A stretch of 22,828 nucleotides of DNA. Origin: a virus. The notes under the pieces were generated by a model that had not been told where the DNA came from, ran no database searches, and saw only the letters and a program-made list of their open reading frames with translations. Each line of letters starts with the position of its first letter. Positions within the stretch are counted from its first letter, which is position 1. Location: positions 1-22,828 of IMG/VR virus record IMGVR_UViG_3300009127_000032; one strand, given 5' to 3'. The position numbers and the translations under genes were made by a program. Positions 4,046-10,163 of this stretch are shown one piece after another.

Positions 4046-4684
4046 TTAAGGAGCAGTTGTTGTGGTTGTTGAACTGGTTGTGGTTGTGGTATTGGTACCG
4101 TCATTCCAAACGATTCGGCCCAAAGGCATACCATCCCAGATAATATGTCCGCCGGTGACTTCCGAGTCGGCACGTTTTGATTCGATGGTGATTGCAACAG
4201 CCGCCGGTTCCTCGGAAGCAAAATCCACTTCTGTATTCGCAACAACCTGCGCTCTCGGGAATATGATGGTCATTGTGTTGGTCCCATCCGGATAGGTGTA
4301 AACAGCTTCCATCCGAATCACTTCAGGGGTGGAAACGGTTCCCAACGGCAACGCACCTGTATGGGCTGCGGAGTAGTCGTCCGGATCGAGACCTCTGGCA
4401 AGGGCCATGTTTTTGGGTGTGATCTCCTTAAATGCCAATTCAAGGGACGCTGCCTCCCTCAAAGGAAACACAGCATCCTCCAGAAGGGGAAACCCGGACT
4501 CCAGTTTGAAGAAGTCGGTGTTTCCCACAAATCTGGTGGAGGCCAGTGCTCCCACCGAGTTAGCAGCAGCAAGGATTGGGGCAACCTGCCCGATGTAGGT
4601 TGCAGAAGCCCCTATCACTCGGATCTGAGCTAACCCCAATGCAATTGTCGTGGTGTCTTTTGTTACTGGACCTGTTCTGGGCAT
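4046..4684 (-). CDS. Major tail tube protein with poly-Thr C-terminal tail
   Basis: 212 residues from ATG 4684, behind AAAGGAGG spaced about 6 nt. By size and position, just before the chaperone pair and tape measure, it is the tail tube subunit that polymerises around the tape measure. The middle holds alternating hydrophobic beta-type segments and conserved-looking acidic loops (ARGLDPDDYS). The last 14 residues are low-complexity: five Thr, Ser-Ser, five Thr, Ala-Pro. The same tail ends the connector protein at 6454-7137 and, without the final Pro, the capsid protein at 8033-9448. The assignment rests on synteny and length; I see no family-defining motif. Confidence 0.8.
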   Translation of the reverse strand: MPRTGPVTKDTTTIALGLAQIRVIGASATYIGQVAPILAAANSVGALASTRFVGNTDFFKLESGFPLLEDAVFPLREAASLELAFKEITPKNMALARGLDPDDYSAAHTGALPLGTVSTPEVIRMEAVYTYPDGTNTMTIIFPRAQVVANTEVDFASEEPAAVAITIESKRADSEVTGGHIIWDGMPLGRIVWNDGTNTTTTTSSTTTTTAP

Positions 4685-4724
4685 AATGTTCCTCCTTTGA
4701 TAAAAAATAAATGTTAGTTACCGG

Positions 4725-4940
4725 TTAGCCTTTTTCCTCGTTTAGAGGGGAGGGCGGAAAGAAGGTAAAGATATTCATATCCCCACAACTCTTCCGAAGA
4801 CAACGAATTTTCACAGATCCGTATATCTCCATAAACACCGGTCTTTTCCCGTTTGGTGAGTTACCGAACTCAAATCGTAAGAGTCCATTTGGTAGCCTTT
4901 TGATCAACTTCTTTTTACATTTTGTGCAACGTAGAAACAT
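4725..4940 (-). CDS. Small zinc-finger protein, Com-like
   Basis: 71 residues from ATG 4940, behind GGAG. It begins MFLRCTKCKKKLIK and later has IRCLRKSCGDMN, so two Cys pairs (C5/C8 and C47/C52) can bind one zinc. This layout, a short N-terminal CxxC, a beta region, then IRC...C, resembles Com proteins; Mu Com is an RNA-binding activator of mom translation. Com-like genes are also found among tail genes of other phages, where their role is unclear. It sits alone between tail terminator and tail tube genes, with 40-93 nt gaps on each side. No mom-like gene is visible in the window, so an RNA target cannot be named. Confidence 0.6.
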   Translation of the reverse strand: MFLRCTKCKKKLIKRLPNGLLRFEFGNSPNGKRPVFMEIYGSVKIRCLRKSCGDMNIFTFFPPSPLNEEKG

Positions 4941-5033
4941 CTTGATTCTCCGACCTTATTAGTGCCTAAAAACGATTCAAATAAATTTGCATATACTGAG
5001 TTGCCCCTAAAATCTGAAAGCGTTTTACCCCGC

Positions 5034-5513
5034 TTAGAATTTGGAGGCGAATCTTAGCCTGACAATCAGCCCTTTATATTTTGTATTATCATCCAATCTT
5101 CCATGGAGAGATTCATTTACATCCTGAACGAGAATTCCCCCAATATCTTCCCATGCCTGTTCTGGATAACTCCGATAAAAAGTGATTCGTTTCATTCCAT
5201 CAGTTGCATCAACATCTGTCAAATACCCCATAACTGTATCCCGCAATTGGGCCAATTTGAATCCCTCATTGTCCCGTCTTGTGCAACAAAAAACAGTCAG
5301 GATTGCCGTTGACATATGATCTAAATCTAAAGAACCAGGGGCCACCGTCACCCATCGGTCTATTTTAGAAGGACCATTCCCAATTAAATCAGGAGTAGAT
5401 AATGAAGGGTCAAATAACAAGGCAATACCTGAAGCAGTTTTTATGTTATCCACAAAAAACTTCTTGATACTGTCCAAATAGTTCGCTTCTCTCGCTGTTG
5501 GTTCAAGAGCCAT
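5034..5513 (-). CDS. Putative tail terminator (tail completion) protein
   Basis: 159 residues from ATG 5513, overlapping the end of the preceding gene by 11 nt, so probably translationally coupled. An N-terminal helix (LDSIKKFFVDNIKTASGIALLF) is followed by beta segments (RWVTVAPGSLD, STAILTVFCCTRR) and a C-terminal strand (YKGLIVRLRF). That outline and length fit the proteins that cap siphovirus tails and join them to the head. It follows a gp10-like gene and precedes the tail tube, the usual place for a terminator. No catalytic motif is expected. The call is mostly from synteny. Confidence 0.6.
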   Translation of the reverse strand: MALEPTAREANYLDSIKKFFVDNIKTASGIALLFDPSLSTPDLIGNGPSKIDRWVTVAPGSLDLDHMSTAILTVFCCTRRDNEGFKLAQLRDTVMGYLTDVDATDGMKRITFYRSYPEQAWEDIGGILVQDVNESLHGRLDDNTKYKGLIVRLRFASKF

Positions 5514-5730
5514 ATTGATCCTTTATCTCCCCAATAAGTTTTTCCATCTGAGGAAAGAACTCTTTTTCCACATATTGAACAGCCGCCGCAGTTTCGGGTT
5601 CGTCCTCAGAATTATATTCCACTTTGCATTTGCTCAACATTTCAAGGAGTTGATCTAATCGACTCATAGGAAACAGAAGTCGAATATAAATATCCCTTGG
5701 AGCAACTGATTCAACAATTATTTCCCCCAT
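5503..5730 (-). CDS. Small structural-cluster protein, function unknown
   Basis: 75 residues from ATG 5730, which overlaps the TAA of the upstream gene (TAATG) and has GGAGG six nt upstream. A longer start at TTG 5742 lies before that site and is not needed. The protein is acidic and mostly helical (SRLDQLLEMLSKCKVEY, KEFFPQMEKLIGEIKDQY), with no signal peptide or membrane segment. It lies between two tail-completion genes and is coupled to both, so a head-tail joining or chaperone role is possible. I do not recognise a family. Confidence 0.75.
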   Translation of the reverse strand: MGEIIVESVAPRDIYIRLLFPMSRLDQLLEMLSKCKVEYNSEDEPETAAAVQYVEKEFFPQMEKLIGEIKDQYGS

Positions 5731-6281
5731 TATTTCCTCCAAACACGCCCTATTCTATCCATTGATTGTTTGGCATTTAATAACCACCCCGCCTTTGAAA
5801 ACTGCTCTCCCGTAGGTTCGAAAACAGGACGGGCCGGTTGCTTGCCTAATCCAAATTCAATAGTTTTAGCATACATTGTTATGGATTTTCTGGGACCCTT
5901 GTCTCCTGTCCCATGCCAAGATTTACCTCCGGAATCCATAGCATTGAGAGGAATGCCCCCAACAAATCCCCACCGTTTCTTAATGACTGTAAGAGATCGT
6001 AACAGATCCCCTTTCAAAATCCAAAAGCTGCTTCCCATCCTCATCGTTTCTACTTTCCACTTTGCATATCGTGGGCTATACGGAGGATAAGAAGTTGAAA
6101 ACGTCCCCTGAGTGATATTTTTATGAAGGAGGCTGATATAGTCAATGGCATTTTCATAGGGAAGCAAATCTCTCTCCCTTTTCACCTGCACTTCGACCTT
6201 GCGGATGGCATTAACAATAATACCAATCTGCTGTCGATTGAACAGAATAAACGGAATCGCTATGTCACCATAATCAACCAT
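5730..6281 (-). CDS. HK97 gp10-like / tail-completion protein
   Basis: 183 residues. The C-terminal half has features common to HK97 gp10-like and phage virion morphogenesis proteins: an SPRYAKWK segment, a GDLLRSL helix, a TKTIEFGLG-like strand (AKTIEFGLGKQ) and PARPVFEPT followed by a terminal helix. These proteins act at the head-tail interface or tail completion step. The start ATG 6281 lies 5 nt after the upstream stop and has only a weak ribosome site, so its translation probably depends on the gene before it. Its stop overlaps the next start (TAATG). Confidence 0.7.
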   Translation of the reverse strand: MVDYGDIAIPFILFNRQQIGIIVNAIRKVEVQVKRERDLLPYENAIDYISLLHKNITQGTFSTSYPPYSPRYAKWKVETMRMGSSFWILKGDLLRSLTVIKKRWGFVGGIPLNAMDSGGKSWHGTGDKGPRKSITMYAKTIEFGLGKQPARPVFEPTGEQFSKAGWLLNAKQSMDRIGRVWRK

Positions 6282-6286
6282 AGTTT

Positions 6287-6445
6287 CTAAGTCGTATACC
6301 TTGGATCAGGCTTTTCATTGTTCTTGGTTTCTTTTCCCATTACAATCGTGGCACATACACGACATAATGGACCCTTATTCGCAACAAACACATAGTAGGA
6401 AGATGTGTCCCTCATACAATGTATACATTTCACTTGCTTGTCCAT
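6287..6445 (-). CDS. Small zinc-ribbon protein
   Basis: 52 residues from ATG 6445, behind GGGGGAG six nt after the stop of the upstream gene. The frame extends further upstream (first possible Met at 6517) but that part lies inside the end of the neighbouring gene, and the ribosome site decides for 6445. Two CxxC pairs 17 residues apart (CIHC and CRVC) form a likely zinc ribbon. The C-terminus is polar. This is the second small cysteine-pair protein in the tail cluster (the other is at 4725-4940). Function unknown; nucleic acid binding or a structural zinc role are both possible. Confidence 0.7.
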   Translation of the reverse strand: MDKQVKCIHCMRDTSSYYVFVANKGPLCRVCATIVMGKETKNNEKPDPRYTT

Positions 6446-6453
6446 CACTCCCC

Positions 6454-7137
6454 CTATGGAGCAGTAGTTGTTGTGGTACTTGAACTGGTTGTAGTAGTCG
6501 TGGTTGTAGTAGTACAAGCCGGTCGGCTGTCTTCCACAACCTTACACACATCCACGCCGTTGAATCGATTCCGAAGAACCGTTTCTACTTTGTAGTACTC
6601 ATCCGATACGATACGAATCCGATCATTGACTTCAATTCCAACTGAGGAAGCGATATACAACTCCCCAACAAAAACGTCATAGAAAGCAATCTGTTGGTCT
6701 GTTTCAAGATCAGTCCCAAAAAGAGGGTCCGAGAGAAGGGCATTGACATCCGCCGCAACAGTAGTCCACTCCGTAACCTTATGGTATGTCTGCGTAGGCC
6801 AATCATCTTCCGAAGGACGCTTGACATCAACAACCACATTGGTCTTATACATAACTGCGGAGTAGTAGCTAACGGAATTCTCAAACATGTTGGGAGTCGT
6901 GGACATCAACATGTATTTGATTCCCGAAACATCTACTTGGATTATTTCACCGACTTCGGCAGGATAATCACTCGGGAGCATCAATTCAATAAAGTGTTCC
7001 CGAATAAAAGGCTTTGTGACCTGAGCGTTCAAGTCATACTTAATGTAATTGCCGGTAACATTGCCAGAATCCCTAAGTATGGTTGTAGCAACGCCAGCCT
7101 CTATGATTGCGTCCTTGACATCTAATGCGATAGACAT
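6454..7137 (-). CDS. Putative head-closure/connector protein with poly-Thr tail
   Basis: 227 residues; ATG 7137 overlaps the preceding stop (TAATG). The body is beta-rich with a central acidic stretch, and the gene lies between the putative head-tail adaptor and the gp10-like protein, where a stopper or head-closure protein usually stands. The last 19 residues are nine Thr, three Ser, five Thr, Ala-Pro. This matches the tail-tube and capsid tails in pattern, but uses different codons (ACT-rich here, ACC/ACA/ACG-rich in the capsid gene). Function is inferred from order only. Confidence 0.6.
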   Translation of the reverse strand: MSIALDVKDAIIEAGVATTILRDSGNVTGNYIKYDLNAQVTKPFIREHFIELMLPSDYPAEVGEIIQVDVSGIKYMLMSTTPNMFENSVSYYSAVMYKTNVVVDVKRPSEDDWPTQTYHKVTEWTTVAADVNALLSDPLFGTDLETDQQIAFYDVFVGELYIASSVGIEVNDRIRIVSDEYYKVETVLRNRFNGVDVCKVVEDSRPACTTTTTTTTTSSSTTTTTAP

Positions 7138-7589
7138 TAATCGGTCTCATTAGGACCAAACAAAACATTTTGATCGGTGTCATATGTAATATCACGACCA
7201 TTCCCATCATAAGCAAATCCAGCATCAACTTGATGTCCAAAAGTCTTAAAAGCATCCACTCCGGAAAAATGTTCGGGATTATCCCTTTTGGCTTCCTCAA
7301 AATTCTTGTCCGCTATTTCAATCAACTTAGAATAATGGGCAAATCGATGTTGGAGATTAATCTGTTCGAACTTAAACTTATGAGCAGATTCGGATTGGAG
7401 ATAAAAGAACAGGTGTCTTTTTGCCCTATCTTTTATCCAAATTATATTAAAGTTAACAGTAGTAGGAAGGGACCAACCTGTGTCCCTCAACGCATCGTCA
7501 ATAGCGTTATCATAATCCTCTTCTTCCAGATAAGAAGTGAGTCCCTTTACCTCTTGCTGTAACTTTACTATAAGCTCATTTCTGGTCAT
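7137..7589 (-). CDS. Putative head-tail adaptor
   Basis: 150 residues; ATG 7589 overlaps the upstream stop (ATGA). The N-terminal half is helical and acidic (LIVKLQQEVKGLTSYLEEEDYDNAIDDALRDTGW), typical of small connector proteins that attach below the portal. Helices continue to about residue 110, and the C-terminal 40 residues look flexible (Gly/Asp-rich). It lies two genes after the major capsid protein, the normal adaptor position in siphoviruses. No signature motif seen. Confidence 0.6.
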   Translation of the reverse strand: MTRNELIVKLQQEVKGLTSYLEEEDYDNAIDDALRDTGWSLPTTVNFNIIWIKDRAKRHLFFYLQSESAHKFKFEQINLQHRFAHYSKLIEIADKNFEEAKRDNPEHFSGVDAFKTFGHQVDAGFAYDGNGRDITYDTDQNVLFGPNETD

Positions 7590-8014
7590 GATCTAACCTG
7601 AAGTTTTAGTTTGGTTCTCGGTTTTAACTCTCGTTTAGGCTCAGGAGCCTTTTTAGATCGCTTTTTTGGACTCGTTTTATCGGTCTTCACCTGGGCTTTG
7701 TCTTCCCCCTCTTGAGGAATTCCCTTGACCTGTTCCTCAAACTCCTCCTCCTCAACTGTGAGTGGAGTAATATCGTTTGAGGTCTTTGAAACCAATGTTG
7801 TTGAGGTCTTTGTGTCGCTTATGACGATTTTAGGAACGGGAATCGGCGGGGGTGTCTTTTGTTCAAGGACCTCCACCGTCCCCGTTCTTCGTCTGACCTC
7901 TTTCAAAAGCGTGTCTGGAATAACAGGCATGGCTCTATTAGGAAGCTCAAGTCCTGCTATCCAGACATCGTTTCCCGCTTTTAACGTCTTTACCAGACGG
8001 ACTTTTGTGATCAT
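7586..8014 (-). CDS. Unknown protein between capsid and adaptor genes, lysine-rich tail
   Basis: 142 residues from ATG 8014 behind GGAGGAGG. Residues 1-55 look folded (MITKVRLVKTLKAGNDVWIAGLELP). The rest is low-complexity: a Pro-rich piece, an acidic piece (VEEEEFEEQ) and a basic C-terminus with SPKKRSKKAPEPKRELKP. Such small genes after the capsid gene often encode head-completion factors. The charged tail could contact DNA or the capsid interior. I do not recognise a family. Confidence 0.7.
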   Translation of the reverse strand: MITKVRLVKTLKAGNDVWIAGLELPNRAMPVIPDTLLKEVRRRTGTVEVLEQKTPPPIPVPKIVISDTKTSTTLVSKTSNDITPLTVEEEEFEEQVKGIPQEGEDKAQVKTDKTSPKKRSKKAPEPKRELKPRTKLKLQVRS

Positions 8015-8032
8015 GTCACTCCTCCTCCGCTA

Positions 8033-9448
8033 TTAGGCGGTGGTGGTTGTGGTCGAACTGGTTGTTGTGGTTGTGGTTGTGGTCGTCGTTGTGGTCGTCG
8101 TTGTGGTAGCTGACTGACCAGTGGTCGCCGTAACATCAAGGATATAGACCGCATCCCGTTGCATAAGAACGGGCAAGCCTTTATCCTGAACACGGACCCA
8201 CAATCCTTCCGGATCCCACGCAGGTTTCTTGTCGGTGAATTTGCCATAGTGACGCTCCAAGCCAAACGGTGCACGTTTGTACTTGGAAATGGGCTGACCG
8301 TCAACATGGGACGCAAACATGATGAATTTATCGTCCGCAATGTACGGTGTCACCATGGTGACGAAGTCCTCCCCTGCCTTATACGAACTGGCCGGGGGAT
8401 AGGCGACTTGAATTCTGGAACCTTCGGTATCGATGCTGATGATGTACCGTTCCTCATAAGTCCCCGCACTCTGATCGTTAAATCGGAGCAACTCGGCGGT
8501 CTTGAAATCTTCCACCTTGTCAACGAAAACCCATGTGGTGGAACCACCAGTCACGGCGGCTGTCAACCAAGCACGGATCTCATACATTTCATCGAAGACC
8601 ACAAAGTTTTCGATGTCCAGAAGCCCTCCAATAATGGACGGATTGACACCGATCAGTTCATGGATACCAGAAGCAGAACCTCCAGTACCATTGAACAGGC
8701 GACCATCTCCAAAATAATTCTTCTGAAGAAGCTGCCGGATCGTGGTGTCGTTTGCCAGATGTTTCAGCACCTGGGAATTGAAAATGGCGTAATTGGGAAC
8801 TGCCCCACACGCCTTTTTGACCTTGATCTTGGCGTCCTGAATGTCCTTGAGGATGTTTCGGCTTGAACCCGTATCCCAATAATAATCACTCGTCAAGGAG
8901 ACGATATGATCAGACGGAATCTGATAGTCCAAGGTCATTTTGTAACCACCCTGTACCTCATAGGTGATGGTACCACCGGAAAGCATCTGAGAGAACATCC
9001 ACTCCAGCCTTCGGTCGGAACGAGCCGATAATGCCGCCAGGTTGGTTGCGACCTTTTCGCGGGCCTCGTCGTAAACGGAATCGGTTCCGGGCTTGCGGAG
9101 ATTGTTGAGGAATTCCTCATCAAAATACATCTTCTCCTTCCAGTATGCCGCTTCCGCCCGGTGTTTCGCAAACCCAAACGGAGCAGTTACCGGGGCAGGT
9201 GCGCCGGGGGCAACAAACGGAGTCATTCCCCTACCACCACGCTGAGATTCCCACTTGATCGTGCTGGACGGAGAGTCGGAAACAGGAAACAGTTTCGAAA
9301 GCACCAACTCCGGGGGCTTCATGAAGGTAGTCATAAAATCCTGAATGACTTCCAACTTCAGATCCGGGATGTCTGCGCTTCCACGTGCAAACTGATTTAC
9401 ATCCACACCCATTTCGGCCAACATTTTAATAAGTTCGCTTTTCTTCAT
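8033..9448 (-). CDS. Major capsid protein (phage capsid E family) with long poly-Thr tail
   Basis: 471 residues from ATG 9448 behind GGGGAGGTG. The body fits the lambda gpE-type capsid family (HK97 fold): an N-terminal arm, a YWKEKMYFDEEFLNNLRKPG segment like the conserved region of that family, a long spine helix region (residues about 125-150), and a C-terminal half rich in FVDKVEDFKTAELLRF-type strands. It forms the head shell. The last 24 residues are sixteen Thr, Ser-Ser, five Thr, Ala. A short hairpin, CCCC-AAGA-GGGG, covers part of the ribosome site (about 9460-9471) and may limit initiation. Decoration and protease genes lie directly upstream, as in lambda. Confidence 0.9.
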   Translation of the reverse strand: MKKSELIKMLAEMGVDVNQFARGSADIPDLKLEVIQDFMTTFMKPPELVLSKLFPVSDSPSSTIKWESQRGGRGMTPFVAPGAPAPVTAPFGFAKHRAEAAYWKEKMYFDEEFLNNLRKPGTDSVYDEAREKVATNLAALSARSDRRLEWMFSQMLSGGTITYEVQGGYKMTLDYQIPSDHIVSLTSDYYWDTGSSRNILKDIQDAKIKVKKACGAVPNYAIFNSQVLKHLANDTTIRQLLQKNYFGDGRLFNGTGGSASGIHELIGVNPSIIGGLLDIENFVVFDEMYEIRAWLTAAVTGGSTTWVFVDKVEDFKTAELLRFNDQSAGTYEERYIISIDTEGSRIQVAYPPASSYKAGEDFVTMVTPYIADDKFIMFASHVDGQPISKYKRAPFGLERHYGKFTDKKPAWDPEGLWVRVQDKGLPVLMQRDAVYILDVTATTGQSATTTTTTTTTTTTTTTTSSTTTTTA

Positions 9449-9476: not shown

Positions 9477-10163
9477 TTACCTGATCATAAGCTGTTGGCC
9501 GAAAACGGTGGCAGAAATGTCAGTCCGTGCCGCCGCATCAACATTCGTGAGCATACCATTCCAAAGCGCACAGTTCCCCCACACCAATGTGGCAACTGCT
9601 CCCTTGGCGTTTACGCCGGTGCCGGTATCAACCGTCTTTTCGAGAATACCCACACAGTCGGAATAGTTGTTACCGGAAGTTCCGGCTTCAACAAATACAT
9701 GACCGAAACGCGCCGTGGTAAAGGCTGTTCCGCCGATTGCTGTGGTGAAAGTGATGACCGCGTAATTTGAATACGTGGTCCGGTCGATTGTGGTGATGGC
9801 TCCAAGATTCTCCGCGGAGGTGACGTTATCATTGATAATAAGATCATCCCCTACCGCAAACTTGTAGCTATCATCCAGCGTCACATTACAGGTCGTTGCC
9901 GTTGCTCCGGTATTCGCTACCAGATAGGCACGTCCCGGATGGTTTTCACTGGCACCGCCGGTAAAGGTTGTCGGATTGTAAGGAACGAGTTTCGCCAGGT
10001 TTCCAGCCGCCGACAGATTTTTAGCCAAAGCTGAACCCGCTTCGATTAACCCGTAGCCTAACTGGAGGGTAATGCTCGGAATCTTCAAGACCCCCTCATC
10101 CCCATAGACGTAAATCTCCTTGTAATCCTTCTGTTGTCCGATGATCACTCCAGGAATATCCAT
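9477..10163 (-). CDS. Head decoration protein
   Basis: 228 residues from ATG 10163 behind GAGGAGGTG. The N-terminus reads like a lambda gpD/HDPD-type decoration protein. A hydrophobic start (MDIPGVIIGQQKDYKEIYVYGDEGVLKIPSITLQLG) is followed by a region rich in Gly, Ala and Thr beta strands, with alternating loops (TGATATTCNVTLDDSYKFAVGD). A C-terminal AVATLVWGNCALWNGML segment follows. It would bind trimeric sites on the mature capsid and stabilise it. At 228 residues it is longer than gpD (about 110) and may carry an extra domain in the middle. It lies between scaffold and capsid genes. Confidence 0.8.
   Translation of the reverse strand: MDIPGVIIGQQKDYKEIYVYGDEGVLKIPSITLQLGYGLIEAGSALAKNLSAAGNLAKLVPYNPTTFTGGASENHPGRAYLVANTGATATTCNVTLDDSYKFAVGDDLIINDNVTSAENLGAITTIDRTTYSNYAVITFTTAIGGTAFTTARFGHVFVEAGTSGNNYSDCVGILEKTVDTGTGVNAKGAVATLVWGNCALWNGMLTNVDAAARTDISATVFGQQLMIR

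Follow-up and report, generated by a model that had tools for sequence, protein, structure and literature searches.

In cellular mucin-type proteins, dense Thr/Ser tracts accept many short O-glycans. Among phages, virion glycosylation has been described for a few mycobacteriophages, where it lies at C-termini that have no tract of this kind. As described in the passages of PMC12619734, PMC12363180, and PMC11256854 that cite Freeman et al. 2023, phage-encoded glycosyltransferases (GTs) of mycobacteriophages (Che8, Corndog, Myrna) place glycans at the capsid and tail tube C-termini, and these virion glycans shield the particles from antibodies. Here we describe a stretch of viral DNA of 22,828 bases (the window; IMG/VR record IMGVR_UViG_3300009127_000032) in which the major capsid protein (MCP), a neck protein, and the major tail tube protein each end in a Thr/Ser tail of the same design. 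We suggest, with a probability of about 0.8, that these tails are tracts dedicated to accepting sugars, as part of a virion glycosylation system that the phage itself encodes. Homologues without a tail are called bare, and the features concerned are the following.

8033 to 9448, minus strand: MCP of the lambda E family, tail-bearing (PHROG 29, E 9.7e-46; PF03864, E 1.4e-29).
8036 to 8107, minus strand: C-terminal tail of the MCP, T16-SS-T5-A, stop TAA, read from the sequence and lying beyond the end residue of bare homologues.
6454 to 7137, minus strand: neck or head-tail connector protein, tail-bearing, placed by gene order (between an adaptor-like gene and the tail terminator position) and with homologues in relatives.
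6457 to 6513, minus strand: C-terminal tail of the neck protein, T9-SSS-T5-AP, stop TAG, read from the sequence; bare homologues end ..EDTR.
4046 to 4684, minus strand: major tail tube protein, tail-bearing, placed before a chaperone-like gene and the tape measure gene; AF2 model with pLDDT 70.4.
4049 to 4090, minus strand: C-terminal tail of the tube protein, T5-SS-T5-AP, stop TAA, read from the sequence and predicted to be disordered (residues 199-212, pLDDT <50).
9477 to 10163, minus strand: gene before the MCP gene, decoration-like by position and tail-free in this clade (homologues in nearly all relatives, 0 tailed).

The likeness to the Che8 type lies in the targets, which are capsid and tail tube in both, in the dedicated GTs that the window's phage, known from genes alone, also encodes, and in a Ser/Thr-bearing C-terminal end common to MCP and tube, although in Che8 both end in GS and are much shorter. 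The Che8 MCP ends ..NKTGS and its major tail protein ..YSDGS, with no Thr/Ser tract, whereas the window's phage has a long mucin-like tail on at least three proteins as putative acceptor; its GT-A family, the only GT family compared, had no match in Che8 or any isolate at E 1e-5. We file tails and cassette as a variant of phage virion glycosylation and place them outside the Che8 system. Ig-like display domains are likewise appended to the C-termini of capsid, decoration, and tube proteins, and only some relatives have them; one Thr/Ser-tailed tube protein (contig G056) falls in PHROG 807, "major tail protein with Ig-like domain". Unlike a folded Ig-like domain, however, the add-on described here is a pure Thr/Ser tract, predicted to be disordered in the tube protein, and one tail type is found on several unrelated proteins per particle and is linked to a GT cassette. 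Cellular mucins have dense Thr/Ser tracts too, but here the bearer is a bacterial virus, again seen only through its genes, with GT-A, GT2, and GT4 enzymes in its cassette. In the open-licence literature searched, we came across no report of phage virion proteins with poly-Thr or mucin-like tails; if true, a whole-particle mucin-type architecture would be one not described for phages in those papers.

The three endings, which the first-pass annotation had read as a Thr run followed by Ser, five Thr, and Ala or Ala-Pro, were right to the base, stops included. Such dense Thr/Ser tracts are what characterizes a mucin-like domain, and the exact pattern with the AP ending matched nothing beyond this virus and a near relative of it. 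A programmed frameshift need not be invoked for the tails, which are in frame with ordinary stops, and tRNA and Rfam searches of the window gave no matches. The neck protein had no PHROG or Pfam match, and the name connector is taken from gene order only. The tube protein had no family match either; its AF2 model resembles the tail tube proteins of YSD1, Mystique, and Bxb1 in fold comparison, and gene order together with this predicted fold supports its assignment as tail tube.

Relatives were collected by searching IMG/VR with the MCP, which yielded 54 and then 80 loci. The tails begin where bare homologues stop in the core profiles, after ..YILTV in the MCP, ..EDTR in the neck protein, and ..IVW in the tube. 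Occurrence was all or none: among non-redundant loci, 41 had tails on both MCP and neck protein and 26 on neither, with one exception (L049), while the count for MCP and tube was 26 with both, 6 with neither, and no exceptions. Open reading frames (ORFs) of at least 100 amino acids (aa) with at least 11 Ser/Thr in the last 14 residues numbered 56 of 953 in 18 tailed relatives vs 0 of 828 in 15 bare ones, so the tails are not a product of chance. In a tree of 96 MCP cores, all 56 tailed ones fell into one group, whose two unlabelled members (L170 and L177) are truncated by the contig edge. Because the tailed cores form this single group, the tails were gained once in the MCP family, or lost once in the sisters, and no complete protein has shed its tail since then. 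Close relatives, in which a lack of tails had been named beforehand as a point against a surface tag, do have them; only sister lineages are without, and there the cassette is absent too.

Several other observations concern these relatives. L049, which lies outside the tailed clade, has Ser/Pro-rich tails (SPSSSPSPSSSP) on its neck protein and on another protein of the structural region (4847-5596 and 6801-8210), seemingly the same principle arrived at independently. The tube proteins of two bare relatives (L040:13518-14414 and L042:12030-12959) have a domain of ~95 aa inserted mid-protein. Three contigs from metagenome-assembled genomes (Melioribacter, Desulfobacterales, Bacteriovoracaceae) with MCP relatives were considered for host assignment and rejected; because two are bare and one is cut off, they give no host for the tailed clade.

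The gene content of the relatives linked the tails to a set of glycosyltransferases. Every ORF of the 18 tailed and 15 bare contigs was assigned to a family by clustering blind to function, and the families were then ordered by how often they occurred in the 9 tailed vs 7 bare contigs longer than 60 kb. The four families with the largest difference were all GTs: a 245-aa family ranked at the top (9/9 tailed vs 0/7 bare), followed by a GT2 family, a 420-aa GT4 family, and a 377-aa GT4 family, each in 8/9 tailed vs 0/7 bare contigs. Pfam gave no match for the top family. Its AF2 model (pLDDT 90.7) found GT-A enzymes as best Foldseek matches (SpsA, GnT-I, K4CP, TarP; E 1.7e-9, probability 1.00), and it has an invariant L-E-x-D-W and an invariant Asp (D42), a GT-A fold with an acidic motif. 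Judged by the modelled fold, this family is a GT-A glycosyltransferase. A sequence search of solved structures with one GT4 (GT4a) gave no match. The cassette genes cluster downstream of the tail and fibre genes, together with methyltransferases and hexapeptide acyltransferases, and the fibre proteins beside the cassette contain long Thr/Ser tracts in tailed phages that are absent from nearly all bare ones. The presence of GTs was rejected as a diagnostic on its own, as other GT cassettes occur in bare relatives; it is the four tail-linked families that are diagnostic, and not GT genes as such.

In bare relatives (G006-G009, G019, and probably G033 and G034; e.g., L087, G008:66183-74499), a different cassette lies directly behind the neck gene and consists of a long GT4-type fusion protein, a GT2, a radical SAM enzyme, and methyltransferases. 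A methyltransferase of the tail-linked cassette at L076:2372-3268 (G003:42369-43268) has a Thr/Ser tract near its C-terminus, followed by a basic end. Long Thr/Ser-rich proteins encoded within the head module (L011:2332-5688, corresponding to G003:68212-71547, and G022:55634-57796) are possibly head fibres with mucin-like stalks. Outside the tailed clade, L129 (G014:89080-92912) encodes a large tail-region protein with Thr/Pro tracts, with a GT2 gene directly after it.

The window itself is part of an 80,338-bp IMG/VR contig (IMGVR_UViG_3300009320_000008, here G001; positions 72576-49749, 100% identity). This contig has the GT-A and GT2 genes, and both GT4 genes are seemingly missing from it. 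The two ends of G001 are connected in a sister assembly of this phage (G055, locus L292); the 4.7-kb bridge, absent from G001, encodes GT4a and GT4b along with another GT2, two methyltransferases, and an acyltransferase. Because this bridge supplies the two missing genes, the window's phage has the full cassette, and its dedicated GTs are GT-A, GT2, GT4a, GT4b, and the further GT2. Elsewhere on G001 (23387-31807, locus L067) are genes of the 7-deazaguanine DNA-modification type, encoding QueC, an amidotransferase-QueC fusion, PTPS/QueD, and radical SAM enzymes; a 535-aa radical SAM ORF among them (29783-31390), with inserted Hint and HNH_3 domains, looks like an intein-bearing QueE.

Since the trait arose once in the MCP clade, the association was tested in other lineages. 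With the GT-A family as query, 76 loci were found in IMG/VR, and Thr/Ser-rich ORFs lay within 10 kb of the GT-A gene in 26 of the 40 closer loci, which include some members of the tailed clade, vs 0 of the 36 distant ones. Of the closer matches, 15 long contigs were read over all or almost all of their length. Among these, G068 and G077 are members of the window's group; the remaining 13 represent several groups that have fewer genes in common with it beyond the cassette, with G056 and G057 sharing the most. Thr/Ser tracts or tails were present in 12 of these 13, and all four cassette enzymes in 11. The tail is found on a head decoration protein (PHROG 49) in G067 and G078 and on the major tail protein in G056.

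The reverse test started from 22 contigs outside the clade picked solely by the ending T4-[S/T]2-T5-A, and GT4a or GT-A was found in 6, including both contigs longer than 80 kb (G036 and G040). G040 has its tails on a head-tail adaptor (PHROG 477) and on a tail protein of PHROG 290. Decoration protein, tail tube, and adaptor, the bearers in these other lineages, are all recognized parts of the virion. This frequency is far above background, since ~84 GT-A relatives were detected in 2.9 million IMG/VR contigs by a scan that depends on the pattern used and misses some relatives. Thus the proposal of a mucin-like, O-glycosylated tag, made from the window alone, is strongly supported by context, the four-GT cassette tracking the tails both in the clade and in unrelated phage lineages.

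We infer from this that the cassette enzymes probably act on the tails, and the linkage to oxygen, the order of steps, and the role as a surface coat are proposed on the same footing. Capsid, neck, and tail tube proteins, and in relatives also fibres, a decoration protein, and an adaptor, each carry a Thr/Ser tract, expected to be disordered, at the end or within the protein. The cassette encodes the GT-A, GT2, and two GT4 enzymes; in some cases a second GT2, methyltransferases, and a hexapeptide acyltransferase accompany them. Inside the infected cell, the GT-A or GT2 enzyme would probably add the first sugar to Thr/Ser hydroxyls, the GT4 enzymes would extend the chain, and methyl- and acyltransferases would cap it, so that the virion would bear hundreds to thousands of mucin-like, O-glycosylated bristles. 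With somewhat less confidence, we think it probable that the conserved GTs (at least four), the sugar-decorating enzymes, and the mucin-like tails form a transferable "glycocoat" module, whose tails different uncultured phage lineages have joined independently to outward-facing virion proteins of various kinds and which provides whole-particle mucin-type glycosylation.

The tails might instead be products of the DNA, arising by trinucleotide expansion or from a recombinogenic repeat copied between gene ends, with no selected function in the protein. The Thr run of the neck protein does vary between close relatives (T9 in the window vs T14 in L003), parts of the tails resemble repeated units, and neck and tube of the same genome match in the residues that follow the last Thr in 16 of 26 cases vs 6.3 expected by permutation, a figure inflated by shared ancestry. 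However, the Thr codons of the tails are mixed, as the first-pass annotation had noted (ACC 19, ACA 16, ACT 8, ACG 6), similar to those of the protein cores (26/15/10/9). Equal-length tails of relatives differ at 232 third codon positions vs 81 first or second positions, against an unconstrained expectation of 1:2, the compared pairs not being independent of one another; the L180 and L185 tails show 13 third-position differences and 0 at other positions. Within a genome, the longest common stretch of tail DNA is 11.0 vs 10.5 after synonymous shuffles (z 2.7), which barely exceeds them, and the likeness between tails appears to be mainly in the protein and not in the DNA. Because of this third-position excess, the retention of tails throughout a deep clade on all complete proteins, and their all-or-none co-occurrence, we conclude that purifying selection acts on the tail as a protein, as had been proposed, and the DNA-level explanation, already disfavoured, is very improbable. 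A recombination seed in the AGT-TC core, also suggested earlier, fits the variable run length and gains little from a DNA likeness so close to that of the shuffles; overall it is weakly supported.

A role without sugars is the more plausible of the remaining alternatives, though still unlikely: the tails could be unmodified hydrophilic or sticky tags that bind host or environmental polymers in place of Ig-like domains, with the cassette serving, for example, to change the host surface. The tails are indeed predicted to be disordered and located where other phages have Ig-like domains, and GTs are also found in bare relatives, but this leaves unexplained why four specific GT families track the tails in the clade and in otherwise unrelated phages, and why fibre stalks with the same tracts adjoin the GT4a gene. 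We consider it highly doubtful that the tails are assembly signals or propeptides cut off by a head protease during maturation, for which one could cite the gene before the MCP, located where a maturation protease or scaffold gene would be expected; the same tail occurs on neck, tube, and relatives' fibre and decoration proteins, which as a rule are not head-protease substrates, bare relatives have the same proteins without it, and the cassette is left unexplained. Several points nevertheless weigh against glycosylated acceptor tails. Tails and cassette were gained once inside the MCP clade, so that correlation alone is not independent, and bare relatives have their own, different GT cassette by the neck gene, so a GT need not mean tail glycosylation. 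The cassette enzymes could act on host surface glycans or other targets instead. No cassette gene was seen in 16 of the 22 tail-selected contigs; contigs are often incomplete and most of these are short, but G039 and G044 reach 53 kb and 63 kb. No relative was found among isolated phages, where the MCP had one weak match (Dulem virus 36), the neck and tube proteins had no homologues, and the GT-A family had none at E 1e-5, with one weak uncultured match.

If the tails are glycan acceptors, as we suggest, many environmental phages appear to carry them on several structural proteins, together with a cassette common to unrelated lineages. The combination of tail and cassette would then be a sequence signature for finding glycosylated phages in metagenomes, and the cassette a compact enzyme set for building dense O-glycan brushes on bacterial proteins. 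It would also let one ask directly what role a sugar coat has for phages outside animals, whether in protection, biofilm adhesion, diffusion, or host recognition.

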